Below are positions 3,396-44,804 of a stretch of 64,000 nt of DNA, piece by piece. This DNA is from Crambe crambe. Lineage: Eukaryota; Porifera; Demospongiae; Poecilosclerida; Crambeidae. The position numbers and the translations under genes were made by a program. Below the pieces are notes generated by a model, which worked only from the letters and a program-made list of their open reading frames with translations, did not search any database and was not told where the DNA came from. The stretch is from positions 5,084,001-5,148,000 of the forward strand of contig OZ004582.1 in assembly GCA_963924555.1 (NCBI GenBank), in the 5' to 3' direction. How positions within the stretch are numbered: the first letter of the stretch is position 1; each line of letters begins with the position of its first letter.

Positions 3396-6300
3396 ATGAA
3401 TATAAGAAATGCCACGGTAAGGTATTGTCTTCTAGGAGTGCTTCTCTTACATGTTTCATGCCATGTGGCATGTGGTGCCTGCCTATCTCATGGCTAGGTA
3501 TTAATATCTTCTAGAAGTGCTGCTCTTACATGGTTCATGCCATTGTGTGGCCTTGTCTCATTGGGCTAGGTATTATAGTATCAGCTATTCTGTGTTCTAG
3601 CAAATTTATATTTGACAGGCCAGAAGAGTATCTAGCTGGTCAAACCCAACTTGTTGTAACATAATAAATATGACCATTATGCAGGGCTGTATACAGAAAT
3701 TTTACTAAAGGGGGGGGGGGAACCTGGGGTATAGAAAAAAGAGGGGATGGCATAGGAAACGTTGATTTACAAATGTATAGACGACTGCGTGGCCATTAGG
3801 CCACAGTGAGTGGGAGGGGGTGTGCCCCCTCCTGCATAAAGCACGAAAGAAAATTTTAATATTTTTGGATGACTCATTGTTGGAGAATTCTCCTACCATT
3901 TTCATACGCAAATGCTAATTATGTGTATTGAGTTAAAAGAATTGTAGCTACTTAGTACTGTGATCTAGAGGAAATTGTGGATGTATAGCAGAAAAAGTCA
4001 AGAAGAGTTTCAGTTTGACATTGATGATTCGTATTAGCTGCTCATTCTTCTGTGTATAATTAATTATTAAAAATTTCAAAGTTTAGGGGGCAAGATTAAT
4101 CAATGGCCCCCTGTGCCCACCTCCAAATGCACCCCTGATCATGAGGTTGGTCTCCTGTACTAGCCTATCAGCCTGTAAAACACTCTCCATTCCACTGCCT
4201 AATCATTATCCCCTAGTGTTCCAGTGTTCCAAACTTAATTTGTCACTTTTCATGTAGCCCAATGATCTGCTGAATATGCAGCACTGCAACCTCCTTTGCC
4301 TGCCAGAGAACTACCAGATGAAGTACTACTTCTACCATGCACTATCCTGGCCGCAGCTCTCTTACGTTGCTGAAGATGAAAGTGGAACAATTGTTGGATA
4401 TGTCCTTGCTAAGATGTCAGTTGATATTGTTATTAGTGAGGATTATAGCGCAGTCATTTCTGAGTACTATGGCATTTTTAATGAACCATTTCTGAAATAG
4501 TGATGATGCCATGTATGTATCCTTGCTAAGATGTATTGTACCACATATTGAACCCTTGCTGTCTCCTTGCTAAGATGTCATATGTTCTTGCTATGATGCT
4601 GTGCCCCACACGTGCATGCACAGCAAGGGGTAAAGCAATTTGTGTGTATATTATATATATGCCAAAATTTTTGAAAAACCACCTAAACTGCGTAAATCGT
4701 CACTTTTTATGCTCTATTTCGATGGCAGAAGACTTACCTCTCAAATATAGCTGCACAACAGTAGTCTAACTTGGCAAACTGCCTTCATTGCCAAATAGAA
4801 ATCACAAGTTCTAACAAGTTCTGTATATAATTCACTCCGTACCTACTACAAAATTTATACGGCATGCAAAATTCACGTGGGGTCATGAAAATCTATGATT
4901 GCTCTTGTTATTAAGATAAGTTGGTAATACTGTCTTTTTTTTTTTTTCCCTCAGGGAGGAGGAGCCAGAGGACGTTCCGCATGGACACATTACCTCACTG
5001 GTGAGCATCAAAGTAGCTACATATTATGTATAAATGTAACAGTTACAGTGTAACTGCCCTAGTGGCTTGTGTACTTTGACCTTCCACGAATCTTCTGATA
5101 TGTGTTGCTGTTAGTCATCACAGCATCCTTATAGGGTGTTTGTAATTCATAGGAGTCCACATAATTATAGGGTGTGTACTTCATAGGAGTCCACATAATT
5201 ATAGGGTGTGTACTTCATAGGAGTCCACATAATTATAGGGTGTGTACTTCATAGGAGTCCACATAATTATAGGGTGTGTACTTCATAGGAGTCCACATAA
5301 TTATAGGGTGTGTACTTCATAGGAGTCCACATATAGGGTGTGTACTTCATAGGAATCCACATATAGGGTGTGTACTTCATAGGAGTCCACATATAGGGTG
5401 TGTACTTCATAGGAGTCCACATATAGGGTGTGTACTTCATAGGAGTCCACATATAGGGTGTGTACTTCATAGGAGTCCACATATAGGGTGTGTACTTCAT
5501 AGGAGTCCACATTGTGTAGGTACTTTTCATTATTGCCATCACTCCACTCTACCTAACTTAGGCTGTTCGCAGAACTCACAGACGCATGGGTCTAGCCAGG
5601 AAACTCATGGATCAGGTAATCTAATGTGATTATACACAGGCTACTGTTATTTACGAAATAGATGTGTTTTGGTTTTTGTTGTTGTTGTTGTTGTTGTTTG
5701 TTTTTTTTTGTTTGTTTTTTTAGGTGGGGGGACAAGGAAGACAGTTTGCCTTTTTTTTGGGGGGGGGGGAAACCTTATGGAATATCCTTATTAGGGTTTG
5801 GAATATCTCTTATTAGTACGGAATATCCTTATTAGGGTATGGAATGTCTTATGATTTCTTGCTTGTGATAGACTTTTTCGGTGATGTAATTTTAGGCCTC
5901 ACGAGCCATGGTGGAGGTATATGGAGCAAAATATGTATCTCTACATGTTAGAGTAAGGTATGTGTCTACATGTGAGAGGTAGAGAGAGTAAGGTATGTGT
6001 CTACATGTGAGAGGTAGAGAGAGTAAGGTATGTGTCTACATGTGAGACTAAGGTATGTGTATTTATTTGCTGAATTCTGTGGCCACCTATAACTGGTTTT
6101 CTATGCACTACCTGATATGGATGATCAGCTTTTGCTTGTGATCAGGTTTGCTTGGAATAAGTGGTTGTGTAGGTTTCATGATAATTGGTAGTTTTGAGTG
6201 TAGAATATAAACACTAACTTATTATTTCCATAGCAACCGTGCTGCTCTCCACCTCTATGAGATCACTTTGCAGTTCAAGTAAGTTAATCAGTTAGGATCC

Positions 6301-7543: not shown

Positions 7544-10500
7544 TTAGAGAGATGTTTCAAATTTATATTCAGGTTCAAAATATGTTTCGCTTGCTGGTTT
7601 AGTAGCATGGTACATAATTATTCCGCCTACACCAAGTGTAGGAAGTGAGGCAAAAACAGTAAGGGCTACTCTTGTGATATCACTGAATTTGGTGCATTTA
7701 TCGTTAAGAATTCCAACCGAAGTTTTTCGGCCATTATAGAATTTATTTTTTGCTGCCACATGAAAATCGTACGAGGTATTTGACTCCAATCCATCAATAA
7801 CTGTTTTTTGACTGTAGGTTGAAGTTGCTTTGACTATTTCTTCCTTTACTAGTTGACCTGTCCGGTTGTGTATGCATTTAACTTCATAGTACTCCAGACC
7901 ATCCTGTTCATGTGGATGATTCCAACGAATTTTTATAGCATCACTACGCATTTTATCAATAACTAACTTCACAGGAGGCCCTGGGAATTTTTCTGCTGTT
8001 GTTGCTTGTATTTTTTCTTCTTCGCTATCTTTAAATTCCCCCAAAGTACAAATACTGAATACATATGTTGTTTTTTGGTCAAGTCCAATTATTTTACAGT
8101 GTATTTTTTGACCATTATCAGTCAGTTTACAATTCGTTTCTTGATTAAATTTGAATAATTCACTGTCTGTGAAGTCATTTGATTGATCATCTTCATCCAA
8201 TTCTATTTTATAGGCTGTCAATACATCGGGTAACTTCTTTGGCTTTGTCCAAGAGAGTTCAACTGAGCTGCTTGTTGTGTTATTAACAGCTAAATTCGCT
8301 ACTGGGTCTGGTCTTGCTTCATTATGGTGTAGTGAACACATCTCACTTGGCTCACTTTCACCAACTCCATTTATTAGACGTACACGAATATTAATATTTT
8401 CAGAAAGGGATGCAATCGAATGAGGTATTGGATATTTTAGGCTCGTATTCAATTTATAAAGAGAGCATTTTTTCCACTCTTTTTCATGGTAATACTCAAT
8501 CTTCACATCTGTCACAGATGAGCCATACTCATCTTTAGGTGAAATAGGTTTTATAGATAGTATGAATTCTTTTGATTTTGCTTCGAACTGTATTGAGGGA
8601 CGTGAAGGTTTAGCTGGTTTTCTACAACCTGTTGTTACTGTTAGTTCATCACTATAATCGCCTTCACTATCTCTGTTGAGGGCATATACTCGAAAGTCAT
8701 ACTCAGTTCCAAATTTTAACCTTTTAATTTCAGTAGTAAGTTCATTTCTATCCATAAACTGTGCTAACTGTCTCCATGTTTTTTTATTTTCTGATGTTAA
8801 TTTCATTTGTATACGGTATCCAAAAACTGCTCTTTCTCTTTCGTCAGGGGCATCCCATGCCAATTTCACAGTATTTTCGAAAATATTCCTGGGTCTAAGA
8901 TTTCGTACAGTGCCAGGTTTTGTATCAAAACTGGGATTCACAGGTACCAAATCACTTGACTCGCTGATGCCGACGTCATTTTCTGCTTGAATGCTGATGA
9001 AGTGAATTTTATCTTCAAATGGCAATTTGATACACTCTGTTCTATCATTTTTCAATGATTCAGGTAACTCAATGATATTTTGATCCAACTGTTCTTCCTT
9101 TACATTGTACTTTGCTATTACAAGCTTCTTTGATTCTTCATTTTTGTTCAAATCTATATGAATATAGATTGACTCCTTTTCAACATGTAATAAAGGTTTT
9201 CTTGGTTTGGTTGGCTTAGCAAGTAATGTTTCTACATCCAATGATGAATTTATTCCATCATCATTTTGATTTAAAGATTTAACTTGAAATGCATATTTTG
9301 TATGCGGAGATAACTTATCAATCACTTTGGAACATTCTCTAGTGTATAAAGCTCTCTTCCATTCGTTATTTCTGCATTCCACTTTATACATGTCCACTGC
9401 TAATGGATTTATGTCTGGCTTTTCCCATGACAATTCAATACTCTCACAGGTGACATTAAAAGACTTCAGATTTACGGGTGGACCTGGTACAATCTTAGTA
9501 AGGTCTACTCTCTCAGATTGACTAGGTTCGCTCTCACCAACATTGTTTCTCATGATAACCCGAAACTTTGTACACGTGTTTTCCATTGTATAGTTATCTA
9601 ATGCCACAGAATATTGTAAAGGATTGGCAGATGCCTCCTCTATATTCTCTTCTTTTATAGTAATCCATTGTTTTTTATTACATTGCTTCTGAATAATAAC
9701 TTTGTTAACTGTTTCTCCATTTTCCTTCAATTTGGGTAATTTCCTGACAAAAAGTGCTAATTTTGTAGGATCATCACCACATACTTGGGTGTTGGGGCGA
9801 AAAGGTTTATCAGGCACCCCACATGGTACAATGATACGATAACGCTTACTAAATTCTCCGACTCTTCTCTTTGATGTGTTATAGCCTCGAAGACGAATGT
9901 GATAAGTTTGGTTTGGGGATAATTCCTTGATTTTGGTACTGGTGATAACGAGTGGTGAATGTACATTATCATTTTTCCATGTGAAGTTGTCCTTCCCCTT
10001 TATTTGAATTTCAAACTTCTCAGCAGCATCTGGATTAATCTCAGGTTTGTCCCACTCCAGTATGACAGCCTTTTCTTTCTTCTCACCTCTTTCTGATATT
10101 TTAATTACTAGTGGGCCTGGAATATCTGATGTCTCTTTTTCATAGACTTCGTACTTTGCAGGGCCTATAGCTTTAGCCATATAACTAGACTTCAGTTCTT
10201 TCAGATTTAATGATGCCTGGGACTTAAAAACATCATTAAACACGTCTAAACAATGATCTTTAGAATCATTATAATTTTTGGACTTTAATCTTTCCATCAC
10301 AGTCTTAATCTTTTCTTCAAGAACTTCCTTCTTTTCAAAATGTAGCGTTTCATCATCTGGCAGTAAATAATTGCACTCTTTGTCTAGTTTTGACCGTATC
10401 TCATGTAGTATGCAGGAATGCATCCCCAGCAAAGTTACTGTATCAGGCTTACTGATATCTCCTTCTTCCACTGGAAATTGTATCGCCTCCATTTGGCTTT

Positions 10501-12653
10501 GATACTCAAGAACTAACTCTTCAGACAGAGAATCGAGTCGATTTTGACAAACTGTGTCCCAATTTAAGTTGATATCAGTTATGCCAGTGTCGGTATTCAA
10601 CGCTTGTATATACTGCTTCGCTAATCGAACGAATATCTCACTAGTAAGGGGTTCATCACTTTGTAAGCACCTCTTACAACTGATACTGCTGCACAACAAC
10701 TCAATGGCTTTTTTAATTTCAGCATTAAAGTTGTGATTTAATTCGTAGATTGGAGTAAGATGTGGCTCTTCATCACTAGCAGGGTGCCTTATTTGATGAC
10801 AGTCAAAAGAGGGAAAGAGAGTGAGTACATGAGACCTTCTGTCATTGTACCTGCTTTCGAGTCCCTGAGTCAGATATTTCTGTATTATATGCTCAGTAAG
10901 GGAAAGATCGTTGCTGGGCTTTATTTTACAATCACGCATCAACCAGAAAAAGTTTGGGAAAATTTTATAGTTCTTGGAAGAGTCATTATCTGTGATGGGT
11001 TCATCACACAAATGAATCAATCGCGATAACTCAGAGAAGCAACTGCAAATAAATTCAATACTGCTATTAACATTGCTAATTTTGGCAGAAATATAATTTA
11101 TAACAGACAGTCAAACTTATGAAGCAGACTGGGGAAAAATGATTTTATATTCAGAGTGACCACCAATCTGTCAAATCTATTTTCTGCCACCATGCAGTAA
11201 CTCACTGTACTCACCTTAGTGCTCTGATATGGTCTAAACCAATCATACCCTGTGTATTGTAGATCAAAGTTGAACTCAAAAGTGTTGTTAAGACGAGAAT
11301 TTTAACGATTAAATCGGTCCGATTCTGTTCATCCACCATTCCTGCACTAGAACCTTCAGTGTCGAGCAGTACTACTTCGAATTCACCGAAGTCTAAAGTT
11401 GTGGTTGCCATTTGTATGCCTCGAGTGCAGACTTCATCCGAGTCACTTGCTTTGAATGCATCATTACCTCCCAATAGTCGTGACAAGAAATATGACTTCC
11501 CTGTTCTTGCTTTTCCACAAATACTTAACACTGCAAAGGGCTTCGTTATTTTTTTGAATAGTTCACATGCATCATTACAGAGCACAAGTTTTCCATCTTC
11601 GTCTGATACCAACATCATACTACTTTTGGAATTGTTTAGCAGTTTATGCATTTTGCAATTTAGTACTGCAAGGACAGAATATATCATTAATAATAAGCTG
11701 AATAACTGTGATAATGGTTCACCTTCAAATAATGGACAACTAGTACTACATGTGGAATGAAAACCATGGGGAATTTTGTTTTATTCATGTATTTTGTGCA
11801 TGTGGTAAAGTTTTCACTGTTGTACAATTTCTATGGTGTTTACAGTTAAATGGTACATAAAAAAAAAGAGTTCTAGTGGAAAAAGATGTTTTGGAGGGGG
11901 GCACTGAAATACATGTATATTAATGTCACACAAGTTAGATTGATTCCTTTCAGACTTCAAGATCACTTAAACTTATAGTCATAAGGAAGAAACCTGTGTC
12001 TTGGTTGTGACTCTCAAGCTCTGAACCTGGTCTGCCATGCATGAGAGGTGACACTACAAGTACAGGCCTGGGCTACCCTTCTGGCTTCAAGTTGTGATCC
12101 AGCAACTGGTAACTAATGGCCTGAGAGTGAGGGTACTGAGTTTAGTAACCCTTTGCCCTGAGAGTGAGGGTACTATTATACCGTAAGCTTAGTGCCCTTG
12201 TGGAGGACACTATGCCTTCTAACTGACCACTCAGCTTTTGCAACCATAATATGGGCACAACCCTTATATAATTATGTATAACCACACTCAATAGTAACCA
12301 CATACCACAAGATATAAGAGTAATGCAAGGAAGAAACCAGGTGGTGACACCTAGTATCACTTTTGCACAGTACAGGGATATATAATGCCTCATGCATTTC
12401 TTTATAGTCAATTACAAGTTGGTTGTCCAAATGTAAAGCACAAATTGACTACAATAAAAATTTGCACTTATTGACACATCTATCTATTCAGGAACAGCCT
12501 CAAGTTTATACAGTTGTTCTAGATTTTGCATCTTGGACAATTCACTGTCTACAGTGTAATAGTTTTATTTTTATTCATTGTCAAAAGGAACCATCATGTG
12601 TTAATTTTAATGCTTACCTGGATGAGATGGAGGTTCACTTTCCACTGCTTTTG
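7544..12653 (-). CDS. GBP-type GTPase fused to FN3 repeats and a membrane helix
   Basis: Main exons are 12618-12653, 11215-11665 and 7544-11042, plus a probable earlier exon at 17968-18006; together about 1,340 residues. The 11215-11665 exon holds a guanylate-binding-protein GTPase: P-loop GKARTGKS, switch TRGIQM, DTEG, then LLSSTLIYNTQG. The large exon opens with the GBP-style RD motif (FFWLMRDC) and a helical stretch like the start of the GBP helical domain. After about residue 300 of that exon come roughly eight FN3 domains, starting near 299, 400, 511, 603, 701, 800, 903 and 1011, each with the usual W and Y/L core. A hydrophobic segment near 1118-1140 and a 20-residue tail end the protein. 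GBPs are dynamin-like GTPases that act on membranes and pathogen vacuoles. FN3 repeats on a GBP are not a standard architecture. The true start was not found. Role: inferred membrane-anchored GTPase. Confidence 0.85.
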
Positions 12654-12719
12654 CTGGAAAAAATTATTATAAAAACAAATTAATAATTATGTAGAAATGT
12701 AGAAAACAACACATGTAGA

Positions 12720-14440
12720 GTAGCGATGGGAGTTTACGAGTTTATGGGAAGCGAAAGTGCAAGTTTATGGCCTCTTCTGTATCGTACCTTGGTCACGTCA
12801 TTGATGCCAAGGGACTACACCCTCTTCAGACAAAGTACAAGCAATCGAAGAGGCTCCAACACCGAGAAATGTCACAGAATTGAAGTCCTACTTAGGTTTG
12901 CTTACCTATTATGGCAAGTTTCTGCCTAATCTAGCCACTCATCTGGCACCACTCTATCATCTATTGGAGAAGAAAGTCTCGTGGAAGTTGAAGTCGGCTC
13001 AGAAAAGGGCAATTGAAGAGTCCAAGCGTTTACTTGTTTCATCACAGCTATTGGTTCACTTTGACCCGAATTTACCACTTACTCTGGCTTGTGACGCCTC
13101 AGCCTATGGCATTGGTGCTGTACTAGCTCACCGTATGGCTGATGGTTATTGGTTTATGCTTCTAGCTAGAACCTTAAACAAAGCTGAAAGAAACTATTCC
13201 CAACTCGAAAAAGAGGAGTTTTCGGAATCAAACGATTCTATTCCTACTTATTTGGACATCCGTTTGAATTAGTTACAGATCACTAGGTTTGTTAGGAGAA
13301 AGGAAACCTACCTCACCTCAAGCTTCATCCCGGATTCGACGCTGGTCACTGTATTTATCCATATTTGAGTATACATCGAAGTTTCGAAATACAACCGCTC
13401 ATGCTAATGCTGATGCCCTCAGCCATTTACTGTTACCTGTCGAGCCAGCTAGTGTGCAAGAGCCTCCAGAGTTAGTACTGTTAACAGAGCATTTTGCTGA
13501 TTCACCTGTTACTGCCAGTCAAATCCGCTCCTGGACGAGAAATGATCCAGAGTTGGCTCCAGCAGTCCAATATCTCCAACAGGGATGGCCAAATTCAAGT
13601 AATAATCCTGCAATTGCCCCATTCATCTCACGACAATCGGAACTGTCCCTTTACGAAGGCTGTGTATTATGGGGAACCCGTGTGGTTGTTCCTAAGGCAG
13701 GGAGAGAGGCCGTGTTAACTGAGCTTCATGAAGGTCATCCAGGAATGGCTAGAATGAAAGGACTAGCTAGAATGTTTGTGTGGTGGCCTGGACTCTATCA
13801 GGACATTGAACAGACAGTCCGAGGATGTTCTGAATGTCAATGGAGTTGGCCCTCACGTCTGTGGGCTTGAATACATCTATAGACTATGCCGGCCCGATTC
13901 AGGGAAAAATGTATCTTATTTTGATAGATGCTCATTCCTAATGGATTGAGGCATTCTGCACACCATCTGCTACATCTGGAGTTGTGCTCCAAGAGCTCAG
14001 AACTACCTTCGCTCGTTTTGGACTGCCTGAGACCATTGTGTCAGACAATGGAACCTGTTTTATTAGTGCTGAATTTGAAGCATTTTTACAATCGAATGGT
14101 ATCATGCAAGCATTTAACATCGGCACTCTACCATCCAGCATCGAATGGGCTTGCCGAACATGCGGTTCAAATTGTCAAGAAGGGTCTGAAGAAAGCACTA
14201 TTCGTGATCGCTTGGCAAAGATACTCATGGCTTATCGTTTCACTCCTCAGTCCACTACAGGATTATCACCTGCAGAACTGATATTCAAGAATAGACCTAG
14301 ATCTCGTCTAGACTTGCTAAAACCTCACACTGCCGAACGTGTTGAGAGTCACCAACAGAAGCAGAAGGAATACCATGATGTCAAAGCTAAAAATAGACAA
14401 TTTAACGTGGGAGATAATGTATTTGTATGTAACTATTGAC
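12720..14440 (+). mobile_element. Broken Ty3/Gypsy retroelement, 3' part of pol
   Basis: The fragment begins within the end of reverse transcriptase (YLGLLTYYGKFLPN) and continues into RNase H (ACDASAYGIGAVLA), the H2C2 integrase zinc finger (HPGMARMKG..CSECQ) and part of the integrase core (SDNGTCFISAEF). Several frame changes and stops (for example after 13270 and at 13868) show that it is dead. No long terminal repeats were recognised. It lies in the 5' intron of the GTPase-FN3 gene in opposite orientation and is absent from the second gene copy. Confidence 0.88.
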
Positions 14441-14589
14441 GAGGTGATCGTTGGTTACCTGGAGTGATCCAAGAAAGAACCAGTCCAGTATCATGGTGAA
14501 GCTCCAATCAAAGTCTGGTGAAGCTCCAATCAAAGTCTGGAGGGATTGAGATTTAATAGAGGGAGAAACTACTCCAGACTGAGAAGGTA

Positions 14590-17060
14590 GAGACTTTCAT
14601 AAGAAATGTACAAGATGTGGAAAAGAAGCACATGCCAGAGACAAATGTCCTGCCAGAGAAGCTACGTGTCACAATTGCCAAAGAAAAGGGCACTATAGAT
14701 CCCAATGTTCCTCTAAGTCTGTGTCTACAATCACAGGAGGTGCAACAGTCACTGCAGATGCAGAAGAGAGCCTACTGGACTCAGCATTCTTGGATACAAT
14801 ATTTGACAGTGAAGAAAAGTCATGGTGTGTCACCATTCAAGTTGAGAATCAAGATAGATACGGGTGCAGAAGTGACAGCAATTTCCGATCAAATATTTCA
14901 AAGTTTGGACAAGGATCTTTCAAAGATAATGGAGAAACAGCTCTATGGCCCCTCTCATCAACTTCTGAGCACACTGGGACAGTTTGAAGCCAGATTGGTA
15001 CACAAGATAAAGTCTTCTATTCAGTCGGTATTAATTTTGTTATTAAAGGCCTCAAGAACAATCCCTCGGGCTGCCAGCAATAACTGCCCTAAATTTGGCA
15101 GTTAGAGTGGATGCTATAGGGTTTTGGTAATCTGGGAGAGGAATACGAGATCAAGAAAGCTAAGCCATATTCACTCTATACCCCATGAAGGATACCATTT
15201 CCTTTACATGAAAAAGTTGAGAAGGAGCTAAAGAGGATGGGGTAATTTCTAAAGTAGAAGAAGCTACACCCTGGTGTTCAGAAATGGTTGCAATACCCAA
15301 AAGAACGGTTCCGTACGGATTTCAAACCACTTAATGAGAGTGTTATCAGGGAAATTCATCCCCTACCCAAAGTCGACGAAATACTTGCACAATTGCATGG
15401 TGCTCCAACACAGGATTCTGGCAGATTCCATTGGCTGAGAAGTCCAAAATTATTGACAACCTTCATAACTCCCAGAGGTAGATTTTGTTTTAACAAATTA
15501 CCATTATTTTGGCATATCTGGTGTGCCAGAGCACTTTCAGGGATTGCCCGGTGTATTATGCCTGATGGATGATGTTTTGACATTTGGGAGGAACCGGACA
15601 GAACATGACGCGAGACTCACAACAGTACTCGAACGACTGGAGACAGCAGGAGTTACTCTAAATGCTTACAAGTGTGAGTTTTCTAAATCTCAATTAATTT
15701 TTCTTGGCCACTTAGTAGACCAGGATGGAGTCCGACCTGATCCAGCAAGAGGAAGCATTTAAGCAGAATTAACAAAACCTACTGTGTTAGCTTTATATAA
15801 TCCAGAAGCAGAGACAAAAATTTCTGCAGATGCCTCCTCATTTGGGCTCGGGGCGGTTCTTCTACGAAAAAGTGAGGATATCTGGAAACCAATTGCCTAT
15901 GCATCTCCCTCCATGTCTGAAACGGAGGGTCGTTATGCCCAAATTGAAAAAGAAACTTTGGCTGTGACATGGGCATGTGAGAGATTTGTAAGTTATATAC
16001 TTGGAGCCACAATTATTATTGAAACTGATCATAAGCCATTGGTTCCTCTGTTGGGAAACAAATCTCTCGATACTCTGCCCCCAAGGATTTTCCAATTTCG
16101 CCTCAGACTGGCTCGATTTGAATACTCTATTGTGCATGTCCCTGGAAGTTTCTTTACACAGTTTACTGGAAATTGAGAGGAGAACTGACGATTGATAACA
16201 ACCTCCTTCTATTCAGAAGACGAATAGTGGTCCCGAAAGTTCTGCAAAAGGAAACGCTGGACAAGCTACACGAAGATCACCAGGAATTCAAAGGTTGCAA
16301 GGACATCAGTTTGGTGGCCAGGTATATCCAGTCAAATTGAGAATCTGGTGAAGAACTGTCAGGCTTGTTCTAGGGAATACTCACCAGGATGTGAATCGCT
16401 TATGTCTAGCAAATTGCCAGATTATCCATGGCAGAAAGTGGGGTCAGATCTCTTCACCCTGAAAGGTTCCAGTTATTTGTTACTTCTCACGATGGCCAGA
16501 GGTCATGAAACTGACATTGACCACATCCAAAGCTATAATTGAGGCACTTAAGTCAATCTTCTCAAGACATGGGATTCCCCAGACATTTATGAGTGATTAC
16601 AGACCACAGTATGCTTCTCGAGAGTTAAGGGATTTTGCAGAAACTTACAATTTCTCTCATATAACTAGCAGCCCATATTTCCCACAGAGTAATGGACTTG
16701 CTGAGTGAGCTGTGCAGACAATGAAGCAACTTATCCAAGATAGCCAGGATCCATACTTGGCATTACTTTCTTATCGAACAACACCATTTTCATGGTCCCC
16801 TGCAGAACTACTCATGGGGTGGAGACTACAAACAAGTATGCCACAACTGGGGGAGCATCTGAGTCCAAAATGGCCCGACCTGGAGGAGTTTTGACACAAC
16901 GATCACGATTTCAAAATGAAACAGAAAGAGGATTTTGATAGTCGCCATCGTGTGAGAATATTGCCTCCCCTGCCAGAGACACAGAAGTGTGGGTTACTAT
17001 GAAGAACAAAACTATACCTGGAAAAATTGTCAGTTCGCAAGATCATATCTAATGGATATG
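14590..17060 (+). mobile_element. Second broken Ty3/Gypsy retroelement, gag to integrase
   Basis: In order: two CCHC zinc knuckles (CTRCGKEAHARDKC and CHNCQRKGHYRSQC, 14606-14690), an aspartic protease start (KIDTGAEVTAIS), reverse transcriptase pieces (FRTDFKPLNESV, LMDDVLTFG), RNase H (ISADASSFGLGAVLL, ETDHKPLVPL) and integrase pieces up to about 16890. Many stops, frameshifts and a deletion in the reverse transcriptase mark it as an old, inactive copy. It is a different lineage from the fragment just upstream, judging by the two dissimilar RNase H versions. Long terminal repeats were not recognised. Confidence 0.88.
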
Positions 17061-17789
17061 TTCAAAGAAATTGGTGACACCTCAACCCTAAACCAGTAAA
17101 CCTTGATATAAATCCTAAACCATCTCCCAATGCAGCCCCAGTGCAGACTTCTCCAACTCGCTCACCGATTATGACAAGAACACGTACTGGTGTCATGTTA
17201 CGTCCACCTGAAAGATTTCGAAGGAAGGGAGATGTGGCTGAAGTGACCTTTGACTCATGTGTGTATTGCTCACTGACTTGTGTATTGTTCACTGACTTGT
17301 GTCATTACAGTAATCTTTTGTCTATCACTCTATCACTATTTATAGTATTCTCACTTGGTATGCTGGTCATTTGTGTTCATTTCTCTTTTTGACTTGAATA
17401 AACTTGAGAACTCACCAGTGCATTGAGAAGCAGCAGGGACTGTGGTGTAAGCTATTACTGCCAAAATGACAAGGACTAGAAGTGCCATCGTCCAAATTAG
17501 CCGATATTATCCACATTCAACAATCCAGAGTCTGAGTTTAATTGTTATTGTGGTTTACTTTGAATCACACACACACACACACACTAATTTTTTAGAAATA
17601 ACAGCATTAAATTAACGAAAATATGAAGTGATCTTTATATTAGGCCATGGCAACAGCAAGGAAGCGGGGAAATTTGAATATCTGGAGAGAACTGCAGAGG
17701 AAGTTAGAGAGGGGAAGGTGTCTGGCATCTGCTAACCCGCCGGGAAAACCACGACTTTGTTAACTGTCTGTTCACTAGCTACCTCCGTT
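17061..17789. other. Non-coding tail after the retroelements
   Basis: It contains a short duplicated string (GTGTATTG(C/T)TCACTGACTT, 17261-17301), a small (CA)n at 17567-17584 and no supported exon. The 3' end of the second retroelement may run to about 17420. Confidence 0.4.
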
Positions 17790-17915
17790 ACTCTATAGGA
17801 TTTCTCACTGAGTTAATTAGCCTTATTATAGTACAGAGGCCTAGACTTGTGGGATAAAAATTATGGGCTGTGGGATAAAAATTAAGGGCTGTGGTAGCCT
17901 GAGTGCATGATCCAG
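17790..17915. repeat. Block inverted relative to the second gene copy
   Basis: This stretch (for example AGACTTGTGGGATAAAAATT) matches 44583-44696 in reverse complement, although the sequence on its right matches 44761-44810 in direct orientation. A short inversion has therefore happened in one copy of the duplicated GTPase-FN3 locus, beside the retroelement insertion. Confidence 0.75.
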
Positions 17916-17967
17916 GGAAATATATTATATAGCTACACTGCCACCTGGCTACTGGTCCATGACTTAC

Positions 17968-18006
17968 CTACATATACCATTTCCCAGTCTGACAATTCAC
18001 CAATTT
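17968..18006 (-). CDS. Probable early exon of the GTPase-FN3 gene
   Basis: A 39-base exon with an AAAG acceptor and a GTAAG donor encodes [13 protein letters not shown]. The second copy (44766-44804) encodes EIGDLSEWEMVDV: the frame is kept and the changes are mild, which suggests real coding sequence. Its phase fits the 36-base exon at 12618-12653 (KAVESEPPSHP), which in turn fits the GTPase exon. The joining across the retroelement-filled intron is inferred. Confidence 0.5.
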
Positions 18007-20469: not shown

Positions 20470-21565
20470 GGACCCCGTAGTCCCCATATTCCTAGGGCTA
20501 TAGGGACCAGTCAGTGATATGGGGCCCCCTCAATTTTCCAAGCTTCCTAGCAAAATAAAAGCGTTTGCTATAGGGACCAGTCAGTGATATGGGGCTCCCT
20601 CAATTTTCCAAGCTTCCTAGCAAAATAAAAGCTTTTGCTATAGGGACCAGACTCCAGTCAGTGATATGGGGACCCCTCAATTTTCCAAGCTTCCTAGCAA
20701 AATAAAAGCTTTTGCTATAGGGACCAGACTCCAGTCAGTGATATGGGGACCCCTCAATTTTCCAAGCTTCCTAGCAAAATAAAAGCTTTTGCTATAGGGA
20801 CCATCAGTGACATGGGGCTCCCTCAATTTTCCTAGCAAAATAAAAGCTATAGGGACAGTCAGTGATATGGGGCTCCCTCAATTTTCCAAGCTTCCTAGCA
20901 AAATAAAAGCTATAGGGACCAGTCAGTGATATGGGGCTCCCTCAATTTTCCAAGCTTCCTAGCAAAATAAAAGTGTTTGCTATAGGGACCAGTCAGTGAT
21001 ATGGGGCCCCCCTCAATTTTCCAAGCTTCCTAGCAAAATAAAAGCTTTTGCTATAGGGACCAGTCAGTGATATGGGGCTCCCTCAATTTTCCAAGCTTCC
21101 TAGCAAAATAAAAGCTATAGGGACCAGTCAGTGATATGGGCCCCCCTCAATTATCCAAGCTTCCTAGCAAATAAAAGCTTTTGCTATAGGGACCAGTCAG
21201 TGATATGGGGCTCCCTCAATTTTCCAAGCTTCCTAGCAAAATAAAAGCTTTTGCTATAGGGACCAGACTCCAGTCAGTGATATGGGGACCCCTCAATTTT
21301 CCAAGCTTCCTAGCAAAATAAAAGCTTTTGCTATAGGGACCATCAGTGATATGGGGCTCCCTCAATTTTCCTAGCAAAATAAAAGCTATAGGGACAGTCA
21401 GTGATATGGGGCTCCCTCAATTTTCCAAGCTTCCTAGCAAAATAAGCTATAGGGACCAGTCAGTGATATGGGGCTCTCTCAATTTTCCAAGCTTCCTAGC
21501 AAAATAAAAGCTGTCAGAGATATGGGGCTCCCTCAGTTTTCCAAGCTTCCTAACAAAATAAAAGC
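20470..21565. repeat. Minisatellite of the middle transposon
   Basis: Some 16 tandem units of 55-75 bases share GTCAGTGATATGGGGCTCCC, TCAATTTTCCAAGCTTCCTA and GCAAAATAAAAGC. Units differ by internal deletions and by an optional ACTCCA insert. It forms the left subterminal region of the CCGGTGTAG element. Confidence 0.95.
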
Positions 21566-21579
21566 TTATGGTGTCTGAA

Positions 21580-24307: not shown

Positions 24308-27300
24308 ATGACATCAGTGACTGTTCTTGTTACTTATTTGGATAAGAAGAAACTCGTAAAAATTCCCCTCAATCATAAAGTTGATAGCGACTTACAATTT
24401 TTAACAGGAGAGTTCATAAAGCTATTTTCTGTTGAAGACAGCTCTAATGTTTCAGTGACTTTTCAACAATATGATAGTGGATGGGATGAATATATTGATC
24501 TTGATTTGACCGATACTCTTCTGCATAAGGACAAGGTTAAGGCTATTGTAACTTCAAAGACATCAAGTGGTATGCATGAAACACTACCAGTGTCACGCTG
24601 TTATGATTTATCACCTTCTTCAGACACATTCAGTGATGTAAGTAATTGAATTAAATAGAAACTTATTAGTACTAGTAATATGCCAATTATTTAACTTATA
24701 TATAAAAGGTAGGGCTCACAATAACAGTCAGTCACAGGACATTTTCTGGTCAATTTCTTCATTTGTTCAGTCATTTTTTGCCTTTATCCGACCAATTTTC
24801 CTACTATAGCTATACATTTAAAACTGCTATTAGATAATCATGTCCTGAGTGTTGTTACTGTGAGCCCTGAAAAGGTTTGCGTTTTAATACTGGCTATATC
24901 ATTTCTCTCTTTTAGTCTGCATCAGTAGATACACCAACTGCTTCAAGAGTCAGCATGCATCGCAGAACGTGTCTTCTGGAAGATGATTCAAATAGCTCTG
25001 AGGGTGATGATGGTGGTGTTAAACCCCTTCAAGTCCAACTTGCTGCTGTGAAGAAAAGAAAGCTTGTCAAGAGTGAAGATGACAATATACCATTGCCTGA
25101 CCCCTTTCCTCTCCCCAAGAATTATCGATCTGATGTAGAAATTGCACTGAAATCGGGAGAACTTACTCAAGAAACTAGAAGCACCTTTTTATCTGCAGTT
25201 GCTTCAGCAATGCTAAATTACAAAAAATATCCAAGTAAAGATGACCACTGCTGCGTTGCTCGAAGCATCATAGTGAAGTATCCATTTATGAAGTCACCAG
25301 TAGGAGCAACATATGTAAGTATTAACTGTAGTTTCCTGCTTCCAGGTCTTGTGTGTGTGTGTGTGTGTGTGTGTGTTTCTAACCGGTGACCTGCTTTCGG
25401 GTCTTGTAGGCAGAAGCATTGTGTATGACTGGCTACCTGCTTTCGGGTCTTGTAGGCAGAAGTGTATGTGTGTTTCTGACCGGCGACCTGCTTTCGGGTC
25501 TTGTAGGCAGAATCATTGTGTATGTGTGTTTCTGACTGGCGACCTGCTTTCGGGTCTTGTAGGCAGAATCATTGTGTGTTTCTGCCTGGCGACCTGCTTT
25601 CGGGTCTTGTAGGCAGAAGCATTGTGTATGTGTGTTTCTGATCGGCGACCTGCTTTTGGGTCTTGTAGGCAGAAGCATTGTGTATGTGTGTTTCTGACCG
25701 GCGACCTGCTTTCGGGTCTTGTAGGCAGAATCATTGTGTATGTGTGTTTCTGACCGGCGACCTGCTTTCGGGTCTTGTAGGCAGAATTAGTGTTGTGTAT
25801 GTATGTGTATTTCTGACCGGCAACCTGCTTTCGGGTCTTGTAGGCAGAATTAAGTGTTGTGTGTGTTTCTGACCGGCAACCTACTTCAGGTCTTGTGGGA
25901 TGAAGTGTGTGTTTACTGTGTACCTATCTGTGCGATAACTAGGTATCATTTCAATGATGTATTACCTTTATTTTGTAGGGAGGTATAGTGAAATCATTGA
26001 GTGACAGGTTCGAAGAGTTTCGGCGGAAGAAAAAACCACGAAAGCCAAGAGATTCTAACCCTTCCCAAGTTTTGGTGGCTGCTAAACCAAAGTCCCCTGG
26101 TATCACTTGTCCTATCACCTCTCCACAAATTCCTCGAGGAGAGGATAAAACATCTTTTAATAGACACAATAATGTGCTAAAAGCTGAGTGGAAAAAAAAA
26201 TCACATAACCAGAGCCTCGTGGATGAATTGATGGAGCAGTCATTTGCAATGTGTTGGGATGATCTCCACTCAGAGAGCCACGACCTTGACTCAGTATTTG
26301 ATAGTTATCCTTTTCTTCAAAGCAGCAGCCATGTAAGTTGATCATTGGGTACAGTAGAATCTTGGTTATCTGGACCTCAGCACCTTGATTATCTGGCACA
26401 TGGCAAATTAACAATATTCTTAACAATTTTGGTGTGTGTTAAATAGAATTGCCATGGAAAATAATACTCTTTCACCTATCCAGATAACCGAGGTTCTATA
26501 CTGTAGTCAACTATATCAGTCAACATGTACTTTTCACTTTTCTCGTGGGCTGCTGCTAATCAAAATTTTTATAGCTAGCTCTCTAGGTTATTTTTGAGCT
26601 TCCAATTCCGCTTTCATGCAGTGCTCACTCTTCTTTTTTTTTAATGTAGCTGATCAGAGATCTTGGGAGATATCTGAAGTGTGACATTGTGAAGCAGTCA
26701 GATGAAAGGTTGAACATGATTGTTCCAAAAATATTGAGACAAGCAAAGCTTGAAATGGTTAGCAACACACATTTGAAAAATGCTGTAAAAGACCTTGATA
26801 TTGACAGTGAGTGTAGGTAGCTATAGGCTTGCATACAAAGAAAAAAATTTTTGGTGGAAGTCAGGACACGCATGCTTATTACTAGCTATTAATCAGAATA
26901 TCTACTCTAATATGATGCATGGATCCCCTTGCCCTGGTGAAGCCTCTGTGGCTAGCTATAGCTATAGATTATTGTTTAAATTTAATATTTTATAAAATAA
27001 CTCTTGCAGATTTTAATATCCCTGTGGCCATAATGTGCTTAGTGTATATGCTTCCAGATGTAAGGACAAAGCCAGATAGTAATAAAGTTATCTTCTTTAC
27101 TGAGGTAAATTAATCACTATGGGAGTGTACTAGCTAGCTGTGACAGATTCCATGACCCATATGTAATGACTATTTTGTATTGTGAAAAATTATGACTAAA
27201 ATACAGTTTAAAGTATTGTTTTGGACAGCAGTTTTTCAAATAAAACTTTTGCCAAATTTTCCTACTATACTTTATAATAATAATCATGTATACATGCTGC

Positions 27301-39761: not shown

Positions 39762-42700
39762 TTAGAGAGATGTTTCAAATTCATATTCAGGTTCAAAATA
39801 TATTTCGCTTGCTGGTTTAGTAGCATGGTACATGATTATTCCACCTACACCAAGTGTAGGAAGCGAGGCAAGAACAGTAAGGGCTACTCTTGTGATATCG
39901 CTGAATTTGGTGCATTTATCTTTAAGAATTCCAACCGAAGTTTTTCGGCCATTATAGAATTTATTTTTTGCTGCCACATGAAAATCGTACGAGGTATTTG
40001 ACTCCGATCCATCAATCACTGTTTTTTGACTGTAGGTTGAAGTTGCTTTGACTATTTCTTCCTTTACTAGTTGACCTGTCCGGTTGTGTATGCATTTAAC
40101 TTCATAGTACTCCAGACCATCCTGTTCATATGGATGATTCCAACGAATTTTTATAGCATCACTACGCATTTTATCGATAATTAACTTCACAGGAGGCCCT
40201 GGGAATTTTTCTGCTGTTGTTGCTTGTATTTTTTCTTCTTCGCTATCTATAAATTCCCCCAAAGTACAAATACTGAATACATATGTTGTTTTTTGGTCAA
40301 GTCCAATTATTTTACAGTTTATTTTTTGACTATTATCAGTCAGTTTACAATTCGTTTCTTGATTAAATAATTCACTGTCTGTGAAGTCATTGGATTGATC
40401 ATCTTCATGCAATTCTATTTTATAGGCTGTCAATACATCGGGTAACTTCTTTGGCTTTGTCCAAGAGAGTTCAACTGAGCTGCTTGTTGTGTTATTAACA
40501 GCTAAATTGCTACTGGGTCTGGTCTTGCTTCATTATGGCATAGTGAACACATCTCACTTGGCTCACTTTCACCAACTCCATTTTTTAGACGTACACGAAT
40601 ATTAATATTTTCAGAAAGGGATGCAATTGAATAAGGTATTGGATATTTTTGGCTCGTATTCAATTTATAAGGAGAGCATTTTTTCCACTCTTTTTCATGG
40701 TAATACTCAATCTTCACATCTGTCACAGATGAGCCATACTCATTTTTAGGTGAATCTATAGATAGTATGAATTCTTTCAATTTTGCTTCGAACTGTATTG
40801 AGGGACGTGAAGGTCTAGCTGGTTTTCTACAACCTGTTGTTACTGTTAGTTCACTATAATCACCTCTAATATATCTGTTGAGGGCATATACTCGAAAGTC
40901 ATACTCAGTTCCAAATTTTAACCTTTTAATTTCAGTAGTAAGTTCATTTCTATCCATAAACTGTGGTAACCGTCTCCATGTTTTTTTATGTTCTGATGTT
41001 AATTTCATTTGTATACGGTATCCAAAAACTGCTCTTTCTCTTTCGTCAGGGACATCCCATGCCAATTTCACAGTATTTTCGAAAATATTCCTGGGTCTAA
41101 GATTTCGTACAGTGCCAGGTTTTGTATCAAAACTGGGATTCACAGGTACCAAATCACTTGACTTGCTGATGCCGACGTCATTTTCTGCTTGAATGCTGAT
41201 GAAGTGAATTTTATCTTCAAATGGCAATTCGATACACTCTGTTCTATCATTTTTCAATGATTCAGGTAACTCAATGATATTTTGATCCAACTGTTCTTCC
41301 TTTACATTGTACTTTGCTATTACAAGCTTCTTTGATTCTTCATTTTTGTTCAAATCTATATGAATATAGATTGACTCCTTTTCAACATGTAATAAAGGTT
41401 TTCTTGGTTTGGTTGGCTTAGCAAGTAATGTTTCTACATCCAATGATGAATTTATTCCATCATCATTTTGATTTAAAGATTTAACTTGAAATGCATATTT
41501 TGTATGTGGAGATAACTTATCAATCACTTTGGAACATTCTCTAACGTATAAAGCTCTCTTCCATTCGTTATTTCTGCATTCCACTTTATACATGTCCACT
41601 GCTAATGGATTTATGTCTGGCTTTTCCCATGACAATTCAATACTCTCACAGGTGACATTAGAAGACTTCAGGTTTACAGGTGGCCCTGGTACGATCTTAG
41701 TAAGGTCTACTGTCTCAGATTGACTAGGTTCGCTCTCACCAACATTATTTCTCATGATAACCCGAAATTTTGTACACATTTTTTCCATTGTATAGTTATC
41801 TAATGCCACAGAATATTGTAAAGGATTGGCAGATGCCTCCTCTATATTCTCTTCTTTTATAGTAATCCATTTTTTTTCATTACATTGCTTCTGAATAATA
41901 ACTTTGTTAACTGTTTCTCCATTTTCTTTCAATTTGGGTAATTTGCTGACTAAAAGAGCTAATTTTGTAGGATCATCACTGCATACTCGGGTGTTGGGGC
42001 GAAAAGGTTTATCAGGTACCCCACATGGTACAGTGATACGATAACGCTTACTAAATTCTCCGACTCTTCTCTTTGATGTGTTATAGCCTCGAAGACGAAT
42101 GTGATAAGTTTGGTTTGGGGATAATTCCTTGATTTTGGTACTGGTGATAACGAGTGGTGAATGTACATTATCATTTTTCCATGTGAAGTTGTCCTTCCCC
42201 TTTATTTGAATTTCAAACTTCTCAGCAGCATCTGGATTAATCTCAGGTTTGTCCCACTCCAGTATGACAGCCTTTTCTTTCTTCTCACCTCTTTCTGATA
42301 TTTTAATTACTAGTGGGCCTGGAATATCTGATGTCTCTTTTCATAGACTTCGTACTTTGCAGGGCCTATAGCTTTAGCCATATAACTAGACTTCAGTTCT
42401 TTCAGATTTAATGATGCCTGGGACTTAAAAACATCATTAAACACGTCTAAACAATGATCTTTAGAATCATTATAATTTTTGGACTTTAATCTTTCCATCA
42501 CAGTCTTAATCTTTTCTTCAAGAACTCCCTTCTTTCCAAAATGTAGCATTTCATCATCTGGCAGTAAATAATTGCACTCTTTGTCTAGTTTTGACTGTAT
42601 CTCATGTAGTATGCAGGAATGCATCCCCAGCAAAGTTACTGTATCAGGCTTACTGATATCTCCTTCTTCCACTGGAAATTGTATCGCATTTGGCTTTGAT

Positions 42701-44804
42701 ACTCAAGAACTAACTCTTCAGACAGAGAATCGAGTCGATTTTGACAAACTGTGTCCCAATTTAAGTTGATATCAGTTATGCCAGTGTCGGTATTCAACGC
42801 TTGTATATACTGCTTCGCTAATCGAACGAATATCTCACTGGTAAGGGGTTCATCACTTTGTAAGCACCTCTTATAACTGATACTGCTGCACAACAACTCA
42901 ATGGCTTTTTTAATTTCAGCATTAAAGTTGTGATTTAATTCGTAGATTGGAGTAAGATGTGGCTCTTCATCACTAGCAGGGTGCCTTATTTGATGACAGT
43001 CAAAAGAGGGAAAGAGAGTGAGTACATGAGACCTTCTGTCATTGTACCTGCTTTCTAGTCCCTGAGTCAGATATTTCTGTATTATATGCTCAGTAAGGGA
43101 AAGATCGTTGCTGGGCTTTATTTTACAATCACGCATCAACCAGAAAAAGTTTGGGAAAATTTTATAGTTCTTGGAAGAGTCATTATCTGTGATGGGTTCA
43201 TCACGCAAATGAATCAATCGCGATAACCCAGAGAAGCAACTGCAAATAAAATTTAATACTGCTATTAACATTGCTAATTTTGGCAGAAATATAATTTATA
43301 ACAGACAGTCAAACTCATGAAGCAGACTGTGAAATATATTCAGAGTGACTACCAATCTGTACAATCTATTTTCTGCCACCATGCAGCAACTTTATATTCT
43401 CACTGTACTCACCTTAGTGCTCTGATATGGTCTAAACCAATCATACCCTGTGTATTGTAGATCAAAGTTGAACTCAAAAGTGTTGTTAAGACGAGAATTT
43501 TAACGATTAAATCGGTCCGATTCTGTTCATCCACCATTCCTGCACTAGAACCTTCAGTGTCGAGCAGTACTACTTCGAATTCACCGAAGTCTAAAGTTGT
43601 GGTTGTCATTTGTATGCCTCGAGTGCAGACTTCATCCGAGTCACTTGCTTTGAATGCATCATTACCTCCCAATAGTCGTGACAAGAAATATGACTTCCCT
43701 GTTCTTGCTTTTCCACAAATACTTAACACTGCAAAGGGCTTCGATATTTTTTCGAATAGTTCACATGCATCATTACAGAGCACAAGTTTTCCATCTTCGT
43801 CTGATACCAACATCATACTACTTTTGGAATTGTCTAGCAGTTTATGCATTTTGCAATTTAGTACTGCAAGGACAGAATATATCATTAATAATAAGCTGAA
43901 TAACTGATAATGGTAGTGGTCACCTTCAAATAATTGACACTAGTATACTACATGTGGAATGAGTAGCCATGGGGAATTTTTGTTTTATTCATGTTTATAA
44001 TTTAATTTGTGCATGTGGTAAAGTTTTCACTGTTGTCAACGAAAACGAGGTTTTTAGTTAAATGACACATTAAAAAAAAGAGAGATCTAGTGGGAATAGA
44101 TGGGGCACTGAAATACATGTAGCTATTATTGGTACTCAGGCCATTAGTTACTGTAGTATATCCATTGTAAAATGCATGCAGTTGCTGGTCATGGATCACA
44201 ACTTGAATAGCCCTTATCAATGTATAACCACTTGCACGTATAGAGGAAAGCCACACATCTATTCAGGGACAGCCTCAAGTTTACACAGCTGTTCATCTCA
44301 ACCAACTTGCAATTCAGTGTAGCTACAAGTTTTATTTATTTATTGTCAAAAGGAAGTTTGCTATCCATCATGTGTTAATTTTAATGCTTACCTGGATGAG
44401 ATGGAGGTTCACTTTCCACTGCTTTTGCTGGAAAATTACAAAATTTAATTAGAAACATGTAGAAACTTACTCAGGGTATGAGTAAGTATGAATTTAGGTG
44501 TGGAATCTAATAATGTTAGCTAGTGAGTTTGAGTGGTGAAGTTAGCTAATTCCTTCTTATTTCAAATCTTTCCCTTTTTCCCAGGATCATGCACTCAGGC
44601 TACAGCACTTAATTTTTATCCCACAAGTCTAGACCTCTGTGAGCATAGCCTATAATGAGGCTAATTATATAACTACTCAGTGAGAAATCCTATACATGTG
44701 TTGTTGGAGTGATTGTTTTCCAAAAGGTATAGCTTTTATAGTATATAGCTGACACTGTGACTTACCTACATCTACCATTTCCCATTCTGATAAATCACCA
44801 ATTT
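39762..44804 (-). pseudogene. Second, frameshifted copy of the GTPase-FN3 gene
   Basis: It is the near-identical partner of 7544-12653 plus 17968-18006, with the same exons (GTPase 43413-43863, small exon 44392-44427, early exon 44766-44804). The GTPase exon is intact: GKARTGKS and DTEG are kept. The large exon is broken at least three times relative to copy 1: a 4-base loss near 42687, a 1-base loss in a T run near 42340, and a 1-base loss near 40507. Several other gaps are in frame (for example KFNQ to NQ, and 6 bases near 40756). It is therefore a pseudogene as written, though the two 1-base gaps could be sequencing errors. It lacks the retroelements present in copy 1. Confidence 0.85.

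Follow-up and report, generated by a model that had tools for sequence, protein, structure and literature searches.

What kind of protein results when a GTPase of the guanylate-binding protein (GBP) type is followed, in one and the same gene, by a row of fibronectin type III (FN3) domains, and in which compartment of the cell would it act? This question is raised by the minus strand of a stretch of the sponge Crambe crambe genome, C3:5084001-5148000 (the window, 64,000 nucleotides of a 143-Mb genome in 119 contigs). As judged from its sequence, the FN3-GBP fusion found there is a real gene and belongs to a family of seven copies. Our preferred reading, to which we give a probability of about one half, is that of a GBP whose head is borne in the cytosol on a tail-anchored FN3 stalk; the protein would probably serve in cell-autonomous defence, and its head dimers would cluster or tether membranes.

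The FN3-GBP gene and its copies

A first-pass annotation of the window had described one long exon linking the GBP RD motif and helical part to a row of FN3 domains and a hydrophobic C-terminal segment, with a preceding exon holding the P-loop and DTEG. Both exons were recovered in this form (Table 1). Exon A (11665-11215) joins exon B (11042-7544) in frame through the consensus splice sites AAG/GTGAGT ... TTTGCAG/T, and from a predicted start at an ATG within exon A the joined exons comprise 1311 codons with no internal stop. The gene had been drawn as far as 18006; exons A and B stand, and the rest of this span is not shown to be gene, the part at 12.7-17.4 kb consisting of retroelement-like frames recognized by eye.

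The two Pfam models proposed for checking the fusion both match the first copy (copy 1, C3a). PF02263, the GBP model, extends across the joined exons with an E-value of 1.6e-31 (109.9 bits against a cut-off of 21.1), and PF00041, the fn3 model, finds five stretches in exon B with an E-value of 3.1e-50. The motifs GKARTGKS, LLDTEG and WLMRDC represent the P-loop, DxEG and RD motif. By itself, the GBP sequence in exon B reaches 21.0 bits in C3a, just below the cut-off, 28.3 bits in C11a and 14.5 bits in C19a.

Exon B is a single exon of 3.5 kb. Since it carries the FN3 array as well as the middle domain and the second half of the GTPase domain, the fusion is independent of the splice prediction, and only the P-loop half depends on it. 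Could the GTPase and the FN3 domains nevertheless be two genes, or an artefact of assembly? The gene is known from sequence prediction, and the second copy in the window is broken. Against this, four copies on three contigs each have a single unbroken frame that runs from the C-terminal half of the GTPase through the middle domain and into the array, and we regard such an explanation as hardly credible.

A search of the genome with exon B found the gene seven times, twice on C3, twice on C11 and three times on C19 (46 candidates, of which the best 40 were scored, giving 14 rows; counts from the genome are lower bounds). The C11 and C19 copies are 47-48% identical to copy 1 across more than 1100 residues. 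The two-exon plan recurs among the copies, as do exon A and the intron, and the acceptor of exon A has one phase throughout the seven. The modelled exons are open in four copies (C3a, C11a, C19a and C19b). The other three are interrupted, C11b and C19c by a single in-frame stop apiece and C3b by frameshifting indels.

Copy 2 (C3b, 39762-43863) lies about 32 kb from copy 1 in the same window, and the exon B search recovered it in four pieces. Its exon B differs from that of C3a at 74 of 3478 aligned bases (about 2%), evenly over the codon positions (22, 25 and 27). The alignment has seven indels, one of which, at the first aligned base, is an artefact of the cut point. Exon B of this copy is probably a pseudogene or an assembly error.

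Relatives of the GTPase and of the FN3 module

If the fusion is a gene, then we can ask: From which GBPs does it differ, and at what point of the protein? In a PDB sequence search all 13 matches at E<=0.01 were GBP1, GBP2 or GBP5. The FN3-GBP shares with them the GTPase domain with P-loop, DTEG and RD motif and the helical middle domain, and differs in having eight FN3-type domains and a hydrophobic C-terminus in place of the C-terminal arm. Conventional GBPs are present in the same genome on C18, where GBP_C is called and the tails are long, helical and coiled-coil-like by eye; a further GBP-type exon lies on C16. In the alignment with the C18 proteins, the FN3 proteins match over the GTPase and middle domains up to GPAK..V. 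Local matches to conventional GBPs end at residue 446-450 of copy 1 and the first FN3 segment runs from residue 451. Because the array begins only a few residues after the GBP similarity ends, it stands in place of the C-terminal arm.

Lineage-specific C-terminal additions to GBPs have a parallel in fish. PMC4932187 describes zebrafish Gbp3 and Gbp4 as GBPs with a C-terminal CARD, and a figure legend of the same paper gives FIIND. The added part there is a death-fold signalling domain, unlike the FN3 stalk and anchor of the sponge protein. No GBP-FN3 fusion was described among the matches listed (titles and abstract openings) in the open-access literature on GBP with FN3, sponges, cnidarians, fish and MLKL, and in a term search of PMC11476962 the words for sponge, fibronectin and GBP were absent. 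The prokaryote and viral sequence collections gave no confirmed relative, as expected for an animal gene, and an NCBIfam search gave nothing relevant.

Atlastins are also GBP-type GTPases, which dimerise and are anchored in the membrane. The FN3-GBP would share this plan, and it differs from them in having a single C-terminal segment instead of a membrane hairpin and in its FN3 domains, which atlastins lack. A two-helix hairpin of atlastin type was not found: of the four segments of copy 1 with the highest hydropathy, three fall within the GTPase domain and the remaining one is the C-terminal segment. Might the protein then be a housekeeping tether that shapes or tethers the host's own membranes of the endoplasmic reticulum or Golgi, with no part in defence? 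A membrane anchor combined with a dimerising GTPase head is indeed the plan of a membrane tether, and tail-anchored cytosolic FN3 arrays exist, as in FNDC3A. However, an atlastin-like gene whose hydrophobic stretch resembles a hairpin (by eye) is present elsewhere in the genome, on C13, the PDB relatives are immune GBPs and not atlastins, and seven fast-evolving copies, three of them interrupted, do not resemble a housekeeping gene. We consider this explanation unlikely.

The FN3 array had been estimated at about eight domains, and this number was borne out, three of the domains being diverged. We divided the array by hand into eight segments of about 100 residues. Five of the eight (D1, D3, D5, D7 and D8) exceed the fn3 cut-off singly; D2, D4 and D6 singly have no Pfam match above any cut-off. 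The segments were then compared profile to profile, each profile having six rows, two of these from interrupted copies. The five canonical segments were joined in all ten of their pairs at probabilities of 87.6-98.5%. The remaining three (class II) were joined as D2-D6 at 98% and D4-D6 at 87%, with D2-D4 only at 32%. Pairs across the classes stayed at or below 1.5% in 14 of 15 cases, the other being D5-D6 at 25%. The domain order is thus I-II-I-II-I-II-I-I, and the other three open copies have five fn3 stretches each. A joint class II profile of ten segments (D2 of C19b, D4 of C19a and the interrupted copies were left out) matches titin FN3 domains, including single-domain entries at an E-value of 1.6e-4. 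By this match D2, D4 and D6 are diverged FN3 domains, and a new fold for class II was rejected.

The best PDB match of the array is titin, a cytosolic protein with FN3 rows and without a GTPase. FNDC3A and FNDC3B likewise have cytosolic FN3 rows and no GTPase, and FNDC3A ends in a membrane segment as well.

Scoring of 150 among 2146 candidates gave at least 150 fn3 stretches in the genome. Which of them are related to this array? Beyond the seven copies, exon B matched only two conventional C18 GBPs and two other genes, L035 (C12:6474780-6476528) and L037 (C8:7505497-7506963). Both are single-frame genes, 34% and 30% identical to exon B, respectively, from the end of D1 through D3. Each has three fn3 stretches and a hydrophobic C-terminus (19-residue hydropathy 1.55 and 1.33). 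In their full frames, Pfam finds MLKL_N with 31.8 bits in L035 and 29.1 bits in L037 (cut-off 27). MLKL_N is the four-helix domain of the necroptosis executor and is cytosolic in known MLKL. A search of the whole genome for MLKL_N gave L035 and L037 only (4 candidates). The reciprocal search with L035 gave 17 matches at E<=1e-8, which fall on L035 itself, on L037, within the FN3-GBP copies and on two fragments from C10 (all 61 candidates scored). A PDB sequence search with the helical part of L035 found nothing significant, so the MLKL_N assignment is that of the Pfam model. Thus MLKL_N is joined to a related FN3 module in two genes of the same genome; the differences are that the copy 1 gene has no MLKL_N match and that no kinase domain is found by Pfam in the L035 and L037 frames.

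What is new here is that GBP-type genes have a related FN3 module in common with two MLKL_N genes, beyond which the genome search found no other MLKL_N gene. The module looks like a cytosolic one of defence type, and we take the MLKL_N link as the best clue to function.

Placement in the cell and evolution of the copies

Where would the two ends of the protein lie? Hydropathy over 19 residues peaks in copy 1 at 1.91, in the C-terminal segment VALTVFASLPTLGVGGIIM, and one segment of the GTPase reaches 1.73; in C19a and C19c the GTPase segment is the more hydrophobic of the two. A related C-terminal segment with GGI..Y.AT is present in the open copies. The membrane helix of the first-pass annotation can be kept as likely, not as proven: the hydrophobic segment is there and it recurs, with borderline hydropathy.

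At the other end, the identical acceptor phase in all seven copies suggests that one or more coding exons probably lie upstream of exon A. Splice signals and conservation point to upstream candidates that recur between copies, and these are short and hydrophilic. One of them, in phase 1-1, is found in copies 1 and 2 (Table 1); others are of the SDDTKDHTT type in C19 and of the MDI.SPK type in C11, with MAEQ or MASQ starts in C19b and C19c. Long conserved coding exons were not recognized upstream in the best 100 of 179 between-group matches, most of which resemble shared repeats. A mechanical list of 54 first-exon candidates contains six flagged as hydrophobic, of which two, in C3a and C11b, are strongly hydrophobic and signal-like. 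The C3a frame (MALLVLVILAV, 17488-17416) was rejected as exon 1; it lies in a segment without a counterpart at copy 2.

These two frames bear on the possibility that a 5' exon supplies a signal peptide and that the fused product is secreted or exposed at the surface. Both are in the right phase, the start of the C11b frame recurs in C11a, the array has ten N-x-S/T sequons, and exons of phase 1-1, such as the upstream candidates, are frequent in extracellular exon shuffling. However, beside the position of the C3a frame, the C11b frame is built on a TTG run; its first 37 residues are 73% kept in C11a, after which the frame shifts, and no such match was found in the C3 or C19 flanks. The recurrent C19 candidates begin with MAEQ or MASQ, only 4 of the 15 array cysteines of C3a are kept across all six aligned copies, and a GTPase requires cytosolic GTP. 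An extracellular product is therefore very improbable in our view. The cytosolic placement, earlier argued from the lack of a signal peptide in the visible exons, is favoured by the hydrophilic recurrent candidates and by the FN3 relatives on MLKL_N; against it stand the two signal-like frames among the first-exon candidates.

How much constraint has acted on the family? Ratios of nonsynonymous to synonymous substitution (dN/dS) were obtained from Nei-Gojobori counts, and as dS is near 1 in the divergent pairs the values are rough. The three divergent open pairs gave 0.37-0.50, which shows, at the level of sequence comparison, purifying selection between these copies and hence past constraint on the fused protein. 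The FN3 and GTPase parts gave 0.69 and 0.58 in C19a/C19b, 1.08 and 0.34 in C11a/C11b, 0.44 and 0.20 in C3a/C11a, and 0.48 and 0.23, and 0.53 and 0.34, in the other two pairs. By these ratios the FN3 array is looser or faster-evolving than the GTPase, which is the more constrained part.

The repeats had also been proposed as a recognition arm. In its fuller form this would make the array a diversifying part of a cytosolic receptor for microbial or self ligands, which signals by oligomerisation of the GTPase. The FN3 ratio is above the GTPase ratio in all five pairs, D7 is the highest of the eight domains in three of the five, and a multicopy family with interrupted members is like many defence families. 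However, positive selection was not shown, as no domain or region had a bootstrap interval wholly above 1. The C11 pair contains an interrupted copy, and in the open pair C19a/C19b the two regions differ little and their bootstrap intervals clearly overlap. The faster evolution of the array holds, and a diversifying arm is a tentative possibility, clearly behind the stalk and anchor that we prefer.

Several observations weigh against a tail-anchored and active GBP. In C19a and C19b, DIEG replaces DTEG, which makes the activity of these copies doubtful, and at E<=0.1 PF02263 does not match exon B of C19b. Nor does Pfam call GBP_C (PF02841) in the FN3-GBP proteins, the coiled C-terminal arm being absent. 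The four recent pairs have dN/dS of 0.69-0.87 and the copies may be decaying; in the last 50 residues or so the ratio is 1.46-2.10 in all four of these pairs, and 0.26-0.57 in the three divergent pairs, from few sites. The hydropathy of the C-terminal segment over the copies, 1.60-1.91, is borderline. The signal-like frame of C11b, 1.8 kb upstream of exon A, is a conceivable though unlikely first exon, and the structure predicted for exon B alone (pLDDT, a confidence score, of 33) is uninformative.

Candidate mechanism and other features of the window

How could such a protein work? The C-terminal segment would insert as a tail anchor, and the FN3 array and GTPase would stay in the cytosol. 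GTP-driven head-to-head dimerisation is the core reaction of GBPs and atlastins. The array may keep the head away from the membrane, so that GTP-bound heads would dimerise at the end of a long stalk, itself perhaps both spacer and binding surface. Dimerisation would let the protein cluster on membranes or tether them, most likely those that enclose microbes or symbionts inside the cell.

In vertebrates, GBPs have a central place in cell-autonomous immunity. We infer a defence function for the sponge family from its GBP membership and from the MLKL_N link: as MLKL_N is present in the only other non-GBP genes found to have this FN3 module, the family probably takes part in cell-autonomous defence or in a cell-death pathway. 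A symbiont-rich sponge is described in PMC4772301 as enriched in GBP1 domains relative to two other sponges.

An unlikely extension is that the GBP-FN3 proteins act as sensors, and the MLKL_N-FN3 proteins as executioners, in a single cytosolic defence circuit. Common to both are hydrophobic tails and FN3 modules that are related. On an invaded membrane the GBP heads would cluster, and FN3 contacts would recruit or release the pore-forming bundle of MLKL_N. If true, this would be a counterpart of GBP-driven inflammatory cell death that lacks CARD, caspase and kinase parts.

The sharp boundary at which a modular stalk takes the place of the C-terminal arm of a GBP suggests a portable engine composed of head and middle domain. 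Through the FN3 module that GBP and MLKL_N genes have in common, two defence families of a single genome are linked in a concrete and testable way, which is relevant to the origin of the connection between GBP immunity and lytic cell death.

Table 1. Coordinates of the FN3-GBP genes and associated features in the window
Feature	Position	Strand	Description
Exon A, copy 1	11215..11665	-	N-terminal half of GBP GTPase domain: P-loop GKARTGKS, switch CTRGIQM, DTEG; PF02263; GT donor at 11214, AG acceptor before 11665
Exon B, copy 1	7544..11042	-	C-terminal half of GTPase domain (WLMRDC) and helical middle domain, followed by eight FN3-type domains, a hydrophobic C-terminal segment and a tail; open frame of 1165 codons
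FN3 array	7697..10129	-	Residues 451-1261 of the model from the in-exon ATG; D1, D3, D5, D7, D8 canonical fn3; D2, D4, D6 diverged class II
C-terminal hydrophobic segment VALTVFASLPTLGVGGIIM	7604..7669	-	Probable tail anchor, by hydropathy; followed by a short tail, acidic in the open C11 and C19 copies
Candidate upstream exon, 36 nt, phase 1-1	12618..12653	-	KAVESEPPSHP; AG/GT borders, phase fits exon A; also in copy 2
Ty3/Gypsy-like retroelement frames (by eye)	12687..17392	+	Within the 5' intron of copy 1; do not belong to the gene
Exon A, copy 2 (C3b)	43413..43863	-	4 of 451 bases differ from copy 1
Exon B, copy 2 (C3b)	39762..43239	-	Gene broken by frameshifts

The segment of about 5 kb that holds the retroelement-like frames has no counterpart at copy 2. 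Minisatellite-like tandem repeats occur in the window at 20497-21567, 25364-25912 and 5129-5512, the last of these in open frames on both strands. On C19, a frame of GGTPSGG-type repeats (locus L014, about 7664-9901, minus strand) has at least 746 codons, is open at the end of the locus and lies about 2 kb upstream of exon A of C19a. On the minus strand of the window, at 54676-55338, a frame matches CTC1, a subunit of the telomere complex CST (PF15489, 31.3 bits, cut-off 27.8).

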